Source: Flavobacteriales bacterium (GTDB taxonomy: Bacteria; Bacteroidota; Bacteroidia; Flavobacteriales_E; Vicingaceae). From it: a stretch of 64,000 bases of DNA. Position 1 is the stretch's first letter. Every line of letters begins with the position of its first letter. The position numbers were made by a program, and so were the translations under genes. Below the pieces are notes generated by a model, which ran no database searches, was not told the DNA's origin, and worked only from the letters and a program-made list of their open reading frames with translations. The stretch spans positions 1 through 64,000 of the forward strand of contig JABAZP010000015.1 in NCBI GenBank assembly GCA_018608405.1, read 5' to 3'. This document shows, piece after piece, positions 11,895 to 40,743 of the stretch.

Positions 11895-12917
11895 ATGAAG
11901 AATATAGCGACTATTTTTATTGGTCTAGTGCTTTTAGTTTCTAGCGCGTCGGCACAATTAATACCCAACTTTGGAGCGCAGCGAGCAGGTTTGTCTACTC
12001 TTGCATTTTTGAAAAATGATTTAAATCCGCGTTCAACAGCTCTAAGTGGAGCAAGTGTGTCATTGGACGCTGATGCTTTTTCATCCTATACAAACCCCGC
12101 GGCAACAGCAGATTTAAAGAGTTTTCACGGAGCCATGAGTAATGTAACTATTGGGGCAGGAATTCAACAGTCTTTTTTATCTGTTTCAATACCGCGTAAA
12201 AAGAATTTTTCAACTTTCGGGTTTTCGCTAAACATGTTGAATTCTGGAGCAATGGAAAAACGTACGGAATTTCAACCGGAAGGTACTGGAGAGAAATTCT
12301 ACGTTACGAATATGGCGCTAGGTGGCACGTATGCTCAACAATTGAGTGACATGTTCTCAGCTGGAATTACCATGAAGTTTATATACGAGCAAATAGATAC
12401 CTATACAAATGCTACAGTTGCCGCTGATGTTAGCTTCTTGTATAAAACAGACTATAAAGATTTAAACTTTGCTGTAATGATTCAAAATTTTGGAGGTAGC
12501 TCTTCCATCAATGGAGATGATTTACCTGAGGATTTTAACCGAAACTTGAATCCAACTGCTGACGATTATTCTGTTCCAACTGTATTTAGTTTGGGAGCTT
12601 CAATTATACCTTGGAAAAAAGAAAAGCAGTCGTTGTTGATTGCACTGCAATTGAATCACCCTTCAGATAATGCTGAAAATTATAGAATTGGCTTAGAATA
12701 TGAGTACATGAAGTTATTGTATGTTAGAGCTGGTTATATGTTAAATGTGGCTAGTCAAAGCTTACCGACGTTCGGGTTTGGATTACGACACAGAATAGGG
12801 GCACACCCTTTTTACATCAACTACGCTGCTAATCCTACCGACTTCTTGGGTGTACAGCACACCGTTGGGTTGGCTATTGGAATAAATAAAATGGATCGAG
12901 AGAATGAAGAACGTTAG
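11895..12917 (+). CDS. PorV/PorQ-family outer-membrane protein
   Basis: The frame is open upstream into the receptor gene, but the signal peptide begins at MKNIATIFIGLVLLVSSASAQ, so the ATG at 11895 (or 11886) is the likely start, giving about 340 residues. The sequence after the signal (NFGAQRAGLSTLAFLKNDL, RSTALSGASVSLDADAFSSY, TNPAATA) is the hallmark N-terminus of PorV/PorQ (UPF0164-like) beta-barrels. In T9SS, PorV carries cargo to the sortase PorU and PorQ associates with PorZ. Paralogues like this one often sit next to TonB receptors and cargo genes. Here two T9SS cargo genes lie upstream in the same block. A dedicated shuttle for them is an inference. Confidence 0.82.
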   Translation: MKNIATIFIGLVLLVSSASAQLIPNFGAQRAGLSTLAFLKNDLNPRSTALSGASVSLDADAFSSYTNPAATADLKSFHGAMSNVTIGAGIQQSFLSVSIPRKKNFSTFGFSLNMLNSGAMEKRTEFQPEGTGEKFYVTNMALGGTYAQQLSDMFSAGITMKFIYEQIDTYTNATVAADVSFLYKTDYKDLNFAVMIQNFGGSSSINGDDLPEDFNRNLNPTADDYSVPTVFSLGASIIPWKKEKQSLLIALQLNHPSDNAENYRIGLEYEYMKLLYVRAGYMLNVASQSLPTFGFGLRHRIGAHPFYINYAANPTDFLGVQHTVGLAIGINKMDRENEER

Positions 12918-25090: not shown

Positions 25091-25579
25091 CTATTCAATT
25101 TTTTATTAGGGTCAATAAGTATATCTACAACATCTTTTGTCAAAAGCGGAAATACAAATAAAAAAACGGTAGAAACAAATTTTGTTGCTGCCAAGAAGCT
25201 TGCCCCTTTAACAACACATCATTTAAATTTTGATTTGTTCAATTTTTGCAAGTATCTGGAAAATGGAAATCCAAAAAAAGCTGAAGGAGTTTACCGCAGT
25301 CCAGATGGAAGATATGTAATAGCGCTAATCAAAAACAACGAAGTAGGACATGATTTTATTGGCGTTGTTTGTGCAGCGGACAATCCTTACTGGACGAAGG
25401 GAGAGGTGAAATTTAACTTCGTACTCGGCAATAACAATGAATTGAATGGATACTATTATAACAGCTTAGGAGAGTATGTTCCAGTTAGTTTTACCATCGA
25501 CGGGGATAGCCTAAAAACAAATAGATTAATTGAGGTAGATGTGCAAAAAATTAAAGCCACGACAAGTGCGTGGCTTTAA
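25091..25579 (+). pseudogene. Small hypothetical protein lacking a usable start codon
   Basis: The frame is open from about 25091 to the TAA at 25577-25579 but contains no ATG; a TTG at 25235 would give 114 residues. Upstream codons still look protein-like (LLGSISISTTSFVKSGNTNKK, a possible remnant of a signal peptide). The body (GVYRSPDGRYVIALIKNN, VVCAADNPYWTKGEVKFNFV, ELNGYYYNSLGEYVPVSF) has regular beta-strand spacing. Either the 5' end has been lost or shifted by an indel, or a non-ATG start is used. Family unknown. Confidence 0.45.
25551..25579 (-). terminator. Hairpin ending the ftsK-lolA transcript
   Basis: Stem TTAAAGCCACG / CGTGGCTTTAA (25551-25561 and 25569-25579) with a 7-nt loop. 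Read on the minus strand it is followed by AATTTTTTG, a proper U-tract, so it terminates lolA, which ends at 25602. It also overlaps the last codons of the plus-strand gene. Confidence 0.75.
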
Positions 25580-34685: not shown

Positions 34686-35558
34686 ATGCAACTACTAGAC
34701 GGTAAAAAGACAGCTACAGAAATTAAATTAGAAGTAGCCGAGGAAATCAAAAGAGTTAAGGCTAAGGGTGGGAAAATTCCTCACTTAGTAGCTGTTTTAG
34801 TGGGCAGTAATGGAGCAAGTATTACTTATGTTAATGCAAAAATTGCTGCTTGTGAGAAAGTAGGAATGCACAGCACCATCGTTCGTTTAAATGATACTGT
34901 ATCCGAAAAGGAATTGCTTGAAGAGGTTGATCGTTTGAACAAGGACGAGGAGATTGACGGATTCATTGTTCAATTGCCACTTCCAAAACACATTAGCGAT
35001 AAAAAAGTGACGGAAGCCATCTCTCCTGAAAAGGACGTTGACGGTTTTCATCCTTGGAACATTGGCAAAATGATGTTGAATTTACCTACCTTTTTACCGG
35101 CTACACCATTTGGGATATTGCAACTAATTGAACGTTACAATATAGAAACCAATGGTAAACATTGTGTTGTGGTAGGCAGAAGTTCAATTGTTGGTTCTCC
35201 CATTGCAAATTTAATGTCGAGAAATTCGTATCCAGGTAATTGCACAGTTACCTTAACTCATAGCAGAACGGTTAACCTAAAGGAAATTACACTTTCAGCA
35301 GATATCTTAATCGTTGCCTTAGGTAAGCCAGAATTTATAACGGCTGATATGGTGAAGGACGGCGTGGTAGTTTTCGATGTTGGAATTACGAGAAAAGCTG
35401 ACAAATCGAAGAAGTCTGGTTATAAACTATATGGAGATGTAGATTTTGATGGAGTTGCTGAGAAAGCTTCTTTCATCACTCCTGTTCCTGGTGGCGTTGG
35501 GCCAATGACCATTGTTTCCTTATTGAAGAATACCTTATTGGCCGCGAAAGGGAAATAG
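34686..35558 (+). CDS. folD: Bifunctional methylene-THF dehydrogenase / methenyl-THF cyclohydrolase
   Basis: The 290-residue enzyme has the family motifs: [20 protein letters not shown] with the catalytic Lys, [25 protein letters not shown], the NADP site [17 protein letters not shown], and the closing [18 protein letters not shown]. It interconverts methylene-, methenyl- and formyl-THF. It is cotranscribed with ffh and works with fhs (15571-17238). Confidence 0.97.
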
Positions 35559-35606
35559 GGTCTTTAGAATGACACTAGAAGACAATCAATCTAACTGTAT
35601 TGGTCT

Positions 35607-35614
35607 TATCTTTG
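35607..35614 (+). promoter_or_regulatory. -7 box (TATCTTTG) upstream of the Crp/Fnr-like gene
   Basis: An exact TAnnTTTG match 22 nt before the ATG at 35637. It supports 35637 as the original start of the damaged regulator gene. Confidence 0.5.
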
Positions 35615-35636
35615 AGCTTCTTACGATAGTTGATTG

Positions 35637-36324
35637 ATGAACGGCAGCACAGAATTCAAAATTATGGCATCTCGAACAAATTAATTTGTTCAAAAACCTT
35701 ACTGACGATGAGTTGGCAGAGTTAGATGATTTGACGGTGATGAAAACTACCGGTAAAAACGACTTTATATACTTCCCAAAAGAACCCAGTAAGATTTTAT
35801 TTTTTCTTAAAGCTGGCCGCATAAAAATTGGCAGCTACTCAGAAGATGGGAAGGAGATTATAAAAGCAATTCTTTACCCGGGAGAAGTTTTTGGAGAGAT
35901 TGGAATTGTAGGAGAAGAAAGTCGCAAAGACTTCGCAGTTGCCATGGATGCGGAAACTAGAATGTGCACCTTGAATGTAGATCAGTTTAAAAAGATGATG
36001 GAAGCGAATGATCAATTGAGCTTAGCAGTAACCAAGACGATTAGAGAAAAACTAAGAAATATCGAAAGAAGACTGGAGTCGTTAATTTTCAAAGATGCAC
36101 GAGAACGAATCATTGACTTCATGAAGGAAATGGCTGAGAAATACGGTAAAAAAATTGGAGTTGAAGTGCTCGTAAAACACGACCTAACACATCAAGACAT
36201 GGCCAATCTTACTGCCACTTCTAGACAAACAGTAACTACTGTTTTAAATGATTTATAAGAAAAGGATTTAATTTACATGGAGCGCAAACGTTTCCTAATT
36301 CGAGAACTTGATAAGTTAGCCTAA
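35637..36324 (+). pseudogene. Crp/Fnr-family regulator with a frameshift and an in-frame stop
   Basis: The longest clean frame (TTG 35686 to TAA 36258) lacks the family start and end. The ATG at 35637 opens a frame (NGSTEFK) that joins the main frame (LWHLEQINLFKNLTDDEL) if one A is removed from AAAA at 35658-35661. The cyclic-nucleotide-binding fold (GRIKIGSYSEDGKEIIK, LYPGEVFGEIGIVGEE) and helix-turn-helix (DLTHQDMANLTATSRQTVTT) are intact. Directly after VLNDL comes TAA at 36256-36258, but the same frame then continues EKDLIYMERKRFLIRELDKLA, the family's usual tail, to a TAA at 36322-36324 that overlaps the next ATG. No Fnr-type N-terminal cysteines are present. Confidence 0.78.
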
Positions 36325-36545
36325 TGTATACTCTGTTTACCGCTGAAAATTGCACCCAATGTGCTCAGGTTGAATCGTATTTAACGAAGCACGAAGTAGC
36401 TTTTAGAAAAGTAAATGTAGATCAATCTACAGAATGCCCACCTTTACAGATATTTGCTTTTCCAGCGCTTTTTGCGGATACAGAATTGTTGGGTTACGGC
36501 ACTGACATTATTGAGTATGTCAAAAAAAAATCTCAAACTATTTAG
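36324..36545 (+). CDS. Glutaredoxin/thioredoxin-fold small redox protein
   Basis: The 73-residue protein begins MYTLFTAENCTQCAQVESYL: beta strand, then a CxxC active site (CTQC), as in NrdH/glutaredoxin-like proteins. FAFPALFAD carries the cis-Pro of the fold. Its ATG overlaps the original stop of the Crp-like gene (TAATG), so it was translationally coupled to it. The last codons form the left part of a terminator. Substrate unknown. Confidence 0.72.
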   Translation: MYTLFTAENCTQCAQVESYLTKHEVAFRKVNVDQSTECPPLQIFAFPALFADTELLGYGTDIIEYVKKKSQTI

Positions 36546-36556
36546 TTTGAGATTTT
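36528..36556. terminator. Bidirectional terminator between glutaredoxin-like and RRM genes
   Basis: A perfect 13-bp stem (36528-36540 and 36543-36555) with a TT loop. On the plus strand it is followed by TTTTG; on the minus strand by a T9 run (the A9 at 36522-36530). It serves the convergent genes ending at 36545 and 36581. Confidence 0.85.
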
Positions 36557-36580
36557 GAAGTCTTAAAGAAATATATTGGT

Positions 36581-36829
36581 CTATTTTTCTTCCCTTGGGT
36601 TACCGGGACTTACTTTTAGATTTCTTCCCATGTGGTCAAATCCGTTTAAAGCTTCTATTGCTTTAGTTCCGGTTTCTTCGCTCATTTCAACGAAACCAAA
36701 ACCTTTAGAGCGACCTGTGAATTTGTCTGTAATAATCTTTACTGAGGTGACATCACCAAACTCAGCAAAAAGGTTTCCTAAATCGTCTTCAGTAGATTTG
36801 TACGAAATATTTCCTACGTAAATGTTCAT
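36581..36829 (-). CDS. RRM-domain RNA-binding protein
   Basis: An 82-residue single-RRM protein with RNP2 (MNIYVGNISYKS) and RNP1 (SKGFGFVEM) in the right positions and spacing. Such small RRM proteins are abundant in Bacteroidota and cyanobacteria, often cold-induced, and bind single-stranded RNA. The A-rich 5' region (ATAATTGTTTAGTTC) has no Shine-Dalgarno sequence. Confidence 0.9.
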   Translation of the reverse strand: MNIYVGNISYKSTEDDLGNLFAEFGDVTSVKIITDKFTGRSKGFGFVEMSEETGTKAIEALNGFDHMGRNLKVSPGNPREEK

Positions 36830-36936
36830 GATATAATTGTTTAGTTCAAAACAAAGAAAAGAAATATTTTATAAATATTTGGATTTCAATTAAAATATCA
36901 CGCTACGGTTGGGTTAAATCGAAACTAGCTTCTGGA

Positions 36937-37473
36937 TTAATTTGCACTTATGGCACTCTGAAATTCTTTTACATACTGGTCCCAAGGTGTTGATTGATAA
37001 GATCCTTCTCCAAAATACTTTATAATTTCTTCTAAACTTTTTGGATCTTGATACCCTGCAATTGATGGGTGCATCAGTTCTACATTTTCATCGAGGTAAA
37101 CAATTGAAGGATAGGTCATTTTACCATTCAATAGGGCTACTGCAAGTTGATGTGGCCCTCGTCGCTGCGTTAAGTTTTCGTTAATAAATGTTTGCTGACC
37201 CAAAACCACTGTGTCTTTGCGCTCTGCGTTTAATTTAACTGCCCAGTAATTCTCGTTAATGTATTTGATGATTACAGGATTCGTAAACGTATTGGCATCC
37301 ATTTTTTTGCACCATCCGCACCAATCAGTATATACATCTACAATAAACTTTTTCGGTTCTTTTTCATTTCGCTTCACAGCTTCCTCAAAACTCAACCACT
37401 CAATTTTATCCTTTTGTGCAGCACTGCTTAGTCCTAATAGCACGCAAAACAATAGAGGCAATAATTTATTCAT
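36937..37473 (-). CDS. Exported thioredoxin-like protein (CGWC)
   Basis: The 178-residue protein has a signal peptide (LLPLLFCVLLGLSSAAQ) and a thioredoxin fold with VDVYTDWCGWCKKMDANTF, i.e. a CGWC active site near residue 52, and the cis-Pro segment MTYPSIVYLDE. It resembles periplasmic thioredoxin-family proteins of Bacteroidota (DUF255-like). Role: disulfide reduction or exchange in the periplasm. Divergent from the putative porin at 37590 with about 115 bp between starts. Confidence 0.8.
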   Translation of the reverse strand: MNKLLPLLFCVLLGLSSAAQKDKIEWLSFEEAVKRNEKEPKKFIVDVYTDWCGWCKKMDANTFTNPVIIKYINENYWAVKLNAERKDTVVLGQQTFINENLTQRRGPHQLAVALLNGKMTYPSIVYLDENVELMHPSIAGYQDPKSLEEIIKYFGEGSYQSTPWDQYVKEFQSAISAN

Positions 37474-39755: not shown

Positions 39756-40654
39756 AAGCCATAGAACAATGCCGTATCAATTGTATGAAATACAGTTGGG
39801 CAATTGATTTGGACATCAAAGGGTTCTTCGATAACATTGACCATGAACTACTGCTAAAAGCAGTGGAACACTACACCGATAAGAAACACATCTTATTGTA
39901 TGTAAAACGGTGGATAGAGGTTGCTGTAGAGTTACCCGAGGGTACAATCAAACCATCCGAAGGAAAAGGTACCCCACAAGGCGGAGTAATCAGCCCTATG
40001 CTAGCCAATATCTTTATGGACATCGTGTTTGATAAATGGATAGCCAAAGAATATCCTGAAAATGCTATTGAGAGGTATGCAGATGATATTATTGTGCATT
40101 GCAAGAATATCAAAGAAGCATTGCGTTTATTGGAGGCAATAAAGCAACGATTAAAAGACTGTAAATTGGAGTTAAACCGAGAGAAGTCCAAAATCGTTTA
40201 TTGCCGTAGAAACCAAAAACGACAACCGCCTTTTAAAGCGAGGTATCAGGAGTTTGACTTCTTAGGCTTTACCTTTAAACCGAGAATGGAGAAGAAAGGA
40301 GGGAAGATGCGATTAGGCTTTTCTCCTGCCATCAGTCAAAAGAGTATTAGTAGAATAACGAGCGAACTGTTTAAGATGAAGATACACCGTTGGGTGCATT
40401 TGCCTTTTAGCAGAATCGCCTATCAACTCAATCTCAAAATACGCGGATGGCTCAACTATTACGGTGTGTACCGAAAATCTGAAATGCGCAGGTTGTTCAA
40501 GACGTTAAATCAACGATTATACAAGTGGGTTCTCAACAAATACAAACGGTTGAAAAAGAAGCATTGGTATTATTCACTTAAACATTTACAAGGCATAGCC
40601 GAGAGCTACCCGAATATGTTTGAGCATTGGAAATACGAAGGCTTCAGACCGTGA
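39752..40654 (+). pseudogene. ltrA: 5'-truncated group II intron reverse transcriptase/maturase
   Basis: The open frame gives about 300 residues: EAIEQCRINCMKYSWAIDLD, DIKGFFDNIDHELLLKAV (RT3), GTPQGGVISPMLANIF (RT4), ERYADDIIVHC (YADD catalytic core, RT5), FDFLGFTFKPR (RT7) and a C-terminal maturase domain (RWVHLPFSRIAYQLN, IRGWLNYYGVYRKSEMRR, ESYPNMFEHWKYEGFRP). Motifs RT0-RT2, normally ~110-150 residues, are missing, and the nearest ATG (39785) is only a local Met. No HNH endonuclease follows. It can still be a maturase fragment but is not a functional intron protein on its own. Confidence 0.9.
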
Positions 40655-40667
40655 CTTGGATTTTGAA

Positions 40668-40701
40668 GAGCCGTATGAATCGAGAGGTTCACGTACGGTT
40701 C
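40668..40701 (+). ncRNA. Group II intron domain V
   Basis: Exactly 34 nt, starting GAGCCG and ending CGGTTC, with the AGC catalytic triad, a GAGA tetraloop and a two-base bulge on the 3' side of the stem. This is the standard domain V layout. Confidence 0.9.
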
Positions 40702-40743
40702 TGTGAGAGATTTAGGGGTGAGATTCCCCTTTACCTACTCGAC

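Follow-up and report, generated by a model that had tools for sequence, protein, structure and literature searches.

The Crp/Fnr-family (crp-like) gene at positions 35641-36324 of the forward strand of the window, which is the whole stretch of 64,000 nucleotides analysed here, is quite probably a recently inactivated regulator gene, broken by two substitutions within a loss of Crp/Fnr regulators that is still going on in its genus. Aligned with intact orthologues, the gene has lost its start codon and carries a nonsense codon. An earlier note, made from the letters of the window, had proposed a real pseudogene with two lesions. The intact orthologues and the independent lesions in two sister species strengthen this proposal, and the explanation it offered for the first lesion is wrong. 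Annotation based on open reading frames would show a functional Crp/Fnr regulator of 190 residues at this place, and reading frames alone gave a wrong first lesion, which calls for caution. Its genus lends itself to observing how a regulatory circuit is taken apart.

The window, with a GC content of 0.38, lies on contig C37 of a draft genome of 2.64 Mb in 38 contigs, 93% complete (G000); the other five species genomes of its genus are designated G001 to G005. The host is an uncultured, probably marine bacterium of the Vicingaceae, and its genus would be UBA1494, which the accessible text of PMC7214798 gives as a placeholder genus within this family. Elsewhere on the forward strand of the window, positions 39785-40743 hold a group II intron, probably 5'-truncated, with a maturase domain and a 289-residue reverse transcriptase that matches RVT_1 from profile position 66; a match to RF00029 (40666-40743) is found downstream of the reverse transcriptase. 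The gene order around the regulator locus is ffh, folD, the crp-like gene and a glutaredoxin-like gene, followed on the opposite strand by an RNA-binding-protein-like gene (rbp) and a thioredoxin-like gene (trx). We take ffh, rbp and trx to be the proper names of these neighbours from their sequences. The upstream neighbour folD (34686-35558, forward strand), which is intact by its open frame and its profile match, serves as a control gene, while the small rbp gene (36581-36829, reverse strand), delimited by its open frame and by comparison, is a conserved downstream flank. The glutaredoxin-like gene (36324-36545, forward strand), the intact partner of the regulator, scores 30.0 bits with PF00462 for a cut-off of 22.9, and its scores with the NCBIfam redoxin subfamilies are all below their cut-offs. 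Its ATG, at 36324, overlaps the former stop codon of the regulator at 36322-36324, just as the earlier note had read it.

The assignment of the locus to the Crp/Fnr family, also made in that note, agrees with the profile matches. The cNMP-binding domain PF00027 (35755-36009) scores 55.9 bits for a cut-off of 27.5, and the helix-turn-helix part of HTH_Crp_2 (PF13545, 36103-36255) scores 29.9 bits for a cut-off of 27, with profile positions 1-46 of 70 only. The window copy lacks a complete winged helix, which the ancestral gene had, so it is a broken member of the family. NCBIfam equivalogs were compared with the intact orthologue of G004 and all stay far below their cut-offs, with 71.6 bits of the 266 required for CRP and 71.9 of the 244.95 required for NtcA. 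An N-terminal cysteine cluster that holds an iron-sulphur cluster is a feature of the FNR subtype; the 21 aligned orthologues have no cysteine within their first 100 residues, and the sole invariant cysteine among them is at codon 109. A second copy that could act as a backup was sought in G000 and there is none, the other Crp/Fnr matches being paralogues with 19-23% identity.

The first lesion is a substitution from ATG to ACG at the start codon, with no frameshift, because the ATG of nine of nine orthologues aligns with ACG at 35641-35643 of the window (bases checked) and the codons that follow are gapless. This alignment covers the start regions of G000 and of nine other family members and has no gap through Ser-Lys-Leu-Trp in any of the ten sequences. 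The earlier note had taken ATG 35637-35639 as the original start and had explained the shift of frame downstream of it by one extra A within the AAAA at 35658-35661. The note was right that this ATG and the body are in different frames, but the orthologues have an equal coding length over this stretch, and their ATG corresponds to ACG 35641-35643, four bases past ATG 35637. The AAAA is ordinary Ser-Lys coding sequence with equal length in 9/9 orthologues and the same four A in seven of them; the stretch reads TCA AAA in these seven and TCT AAA in the other two, followed by a leucine codon and TGG. There is thus no insertion, and the start-region alignment rules out the frameshift, to which we leave practically no probability. 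ATG 35637, which opens a frame of only 15 codons and is the start in none of the nine orthologues, is a chance out-of-frame codon. The promoter-like -7 box noted upstream is present as TATCTTTG (35607-35614, forward strand), with a similar sequence at the aligned position within the genus; the consensus of this element is TAnnTTTG. The frame of the body is open from just past TGA 35638-35640 to TAA 36256, so that the open remainder of the gene spans 35641-36258, and the first common start codon remaining in frame is TTG 35686, whose use would lose the first 15 residues.

The second lesion is a TAA at codon 206 (36256-36258), a position that is lysine or arginine in 21/21 aligned orthologues. 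The in-frame stop had been pointed out from the window, and translation and orthologue alignment confirm it. After this stop the conserved tail with its former stop codon (36259-36324) runs on in the same frame to TAA 36322-36324. AlphaFold2 modelling of an intact orthologue, with a mean pLDDT of 81, gives a helix at residues 195-207 followed by two wing strands, at 211-214 and 217-220. The stop thus takes the wing away from the winged-helix DNA-binding domain. The tail beyond it has remained almost identical to the orthologue tails, which suggests that the stop is young. A shortened protein that starts at ACG or at TTG 35686 and works without the wing, as a dimer partner or as a weak binder, is very unlikely. 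Its body remains near the orthologues, and the model gives low confidence to the first 14 residues, so that their loss might be tolerated, but the parts lost here, the wing and the last portion of the recognition helix, are conserved in all 21 orthologues, none of which ends at VLNDL as the open frame of the window does. The lesions of G001 and G002 lie elsewhere in the gene, so no common short form has been kept.

The crp-like gene is present beside the same flanking genes in all six genomes of the genus, and three of the six carry disabling lesions, which are all different. In addition to G000, these are G001 (locus L007), with a TGA at codon 109, where 21/21 aligned orthologues have cysteine, and G002, which has a frameshift at about codon 47 and differs at nine sites that do not otherwise vary among twelve genomes. 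The frames of G003, G004 and G005 are full-length; that of G004 is open but has two changes at otherwise invariant sites. The genes folD, rbp and trx are intact in all six genomes. The tree of the control genes places G000 and G002 as sisters with a support of 0.997, and since the lesions differ even between these sisters, there have been at least three independent inactivations in the genus. Two redoxin genes of the genus are altered as well: the one of G002 (L011) has two stops and a changed second cysteine, and in that of G004 (L005) the first cysteine of the CxxC motif is replaced by phenylalanine.

The stop codons of these genes could also be imagined as recoded, with the TAA of the window read through and the TGA of G001 translated as selenocysteine at the invariant cysteine. 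The tail past the stop is conserved, and the TGA falls exactly on the codon that encodes cysteine in every aligned orthologue, as such recoding would require. However, neither selB nor tRNA-Sec is found over curated cut-offs in any of the six genomes, so that selenocysteine is rejected as unsupported and the TGA is read as a plain nonsense codon, and the lesions differ by species and include a start-codon loss and a frameshift that read-through leaves unexplained. Recoding has hardly any chance of being the correct explanation.

The selection values of the gene bodies fit an inactivation that is very recent in G000 and in G001, and an older decay in G002; sequence errors in G000 or G001 would be compatible with them too. 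With a background omega of 0.016 for the crp-like gene, the joint fit gives tip values of 0.028 for G000, 0.006 for G001 and 0.077 for G002, compared with 0.029, 0.005 and 0.040 in folD, all of them rough values because several branches are close to saturated with synonymous change. Fitted alone, the omega of G000 is unbounded upward, the branch length trading against omega, and that of G002 is 0.089, which overlaps its folD value of 0.060. The protein branch of G000 equals that of the controls (0.025 and 0.023), whereas that of G002 is longer (0.116 versus 0.032), and G002 has nine changes at invariant sites in the crp-like gene versus two in folD (p = 0.011). The body of the G000 gene thus resembles that of a gene which worked until very recently, since selection is not measurably relaxed and the branch is like those of the controls.

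A body without clear excess of amino-acid change is also what an intact gene would have if both substitutions were errors of assembly or consensus and absent from the organism, and the genome is a draft in 38 contigs. Such an error is nevertheless unlikely: it would have to place two lesions of substitution type in one gene of 0.7 kb while both neighbours remain intact, and the gene is also broken in two further genomes that differ in origin, a metagenome bin and a record not labelled as a MAG. The sequence of the window is presumably free of assembly error here, and the preferred reading remains a recent inactivation by two substitutions.

Breakage of this gene is concentrated in the genus. 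Outside it, one of 71 orthologues is broken, versus 3/6 inside (Fisher p = 0.001, the species being not fully independent). The 71 orthologues are the 79 loci of the scan minus five of the genus and minus three spirochaete partial matches, and the scan used short motifs, so that badly decayed copies may be missed. The broken orthologue outside the genus is L135, from isolate RH-18aug17-329, with a frame change near codon 95; L109, whose flag arose solely from its two tandem copies, is not counted as broken. An intact orthologue (L067) is present in a cultured relative, Acidiluteibacter ferrifornacis. Other genes are broken too. In the compared stretches of the six genomes, breakage affects 8 of 162 copies of other genes after exclusions, from a raw count of 15/173 from which the six copies of the crp-like gene (three broken) and the rbp row (five copies, four flagged) were removed, the latter because the stop flagged there lies upstream, in an extension of the start; of the rows left, two cover one and the same fast-changing gene. 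At this rate pseudogenes are common in the genus, and one broken gene would be weak evidence alone, because other genes of the genus are broken as well. The probability of at least three broken copies among six at the 8/162 rate is 0.002 before allowing for the 61 gene groups examined, so the enrichment in the crp-like gene is suggestive and not overwhelming. Two other places of the same contig can be described here. A 114-residue open frame of the window with no Pfam match (25235-25579, forward strand) is interrupted by stops or frame changes in its G002 and G004 counterparts; it is either a spurious open reading frame or another case, the second, of a gene that has broken in several species. 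On the reverse strand of C37, at 100264-102220, two adjacent genes are broken by stops or a frame change in comparison with G004; their sequence resembles a DNA methyltransferase of restriction-modification type.

Beyond the genus, 17 of the 31 other genomes of the family have no close match to the crp-like gene (E-values above 1e-60), and the matches that remain are distant paralogues. Three of these genomes (G007, G010 and G012) retain the order ffh-folD-rbp-trx and cleanly lack the pair of regulator and redoxin. The redoxin is absent from 10/10 genomes without the regulator that were searched and present in both of the two with it. It lies downstream of the regulator in 22 of 79 loci, a count in which one row (L095) is false and rows with an altered CxxC are lacking. 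Because both genes are absent together, the regulator and the redoxin behave as one dispensable module, which appears to have been lost repeatedly in the family.

A second Crp/Fnr gene of G000, on contig C22, has the FNR-like N-terminal motif CxxC-x8-C and is broken by a frameshift. Together with a relic of a cbb3-oxidase cluster it occupies positions 35545-37100 of this contig (loci L194 and L207). This FNR-type gene has a nonsense codon in G003, is intact in G005 and was not detected in G001, G002 and G004; in the five other genera searched that have one (G007, G010, G012, G013 and G019) it is always intact. It adjoins the cbb3 cluster in G003, G005, G010 and G019. The cluster, which consists of ccoNO, ccoP, ccoG and a metal-ATPase gene as identified in G003, is intact in G003, G010 and G019, and a frame change splits ccoN in G005. 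G000 lacks the cluster: the DNA matches G003 up to its position 1520 and, after fewer than 400 bases, again from position 12751 onward, and the relic is the start of the ATPase gene, with stops. No ccoN match over or near the cut-off was found in G000, G001, G002 and G004, a group that includes all the species of the genus whose window gene is broken. Loss of the cbb3 oxidase was considered as the cause of the regulator decay and, although it fits the genus, it was rejected. Across 37 genomes, ccoN is present in 14 of the 17 whose window gene is unbroken and in 13 of the other 20 (p = 0.29; partial or split ccoN scored as present, and G029, 69% complete, as without both), and in G007, G010 and G012, which lack the window regulator, both ccoN and the FNR-type regulator persist. 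A causal link between regulator and cbb3 oxidase is unproven because the family-wide association is not significant. The earlier note had proposed a possible loss of control over redox or carbon genes. A redox or oxygen-related role of the window regulator is plausible from the downstream redoxin and from the parallel loss of the FNR-type regulator and the cbb3 genes.

In the explanation that we propose, the change from ATG to ACG removes the start codon and the TAA removes the DNA-binding wing, and presumably no active regulator is made from the locus. Transcription through it may continue, because the intact glutaredoxin-like gene follows in what would be the same operon. The regulator and its partner would be dispensable in the family, and their loss would be caught in progress in the genus, in three of six species, with a parallel decay of the FNR-type regulator and, in G000, the deletion of the adjacent cbb3 cluster. 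The cause may be a relaxed need for micro-oxic or redox control. A bolder idea, which we regard as doubtful, is that null alleles of Crp/Fnr genes are repeatedly favoured in wild populations of the genus and are short-lived, with a shift away from micro-oxic respiration as the shared driver. The lesions differ and look recent in bodies that are still marked by strong purifying selection, which would speak for favoured loss, and the same species lose both the FNR-type regulator and the cbb3 oxidase, which would speak for the shared driver.

Compared with other members of the Crp/Fnr family, the window gene shares the domain order, the cNMP-binding fold and the helix-turn-helix, and its nearest solved relatives by profile are NtcA, mycobacterial Crp and CooA, but the window copy has no wing. 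The second lost regulator of G000 is of the FNR type found beside the cbb3 cluster with ccoNO, ccoP and ccoG, whereas the window gene is another paralogue, located beside folD and the redoxin and without the N-terminal cysteine cluster; members of the family keep either of the two regulators without the other. Among the papers listed by a literature search, none deals with the window regulator or with pseudogenes of the genus. For Salmonella, the accessible part of Kuo and Ochman 2010 (PMC2916853) describes the rapid removal of young pseudogenes. The window gene is likewise a young and lightly damaged copy, and the clean absence of the pair in related genera fits a rapid removal of this kind. 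This kind of event is known and ordinary, and its recurrence across species is the only unusual part: unlike the pseudogenes described in that part of the paper, here, in an uncultured genus, three of six species have independently taken damage in the same regulator, whose operon partner is mostly intact.
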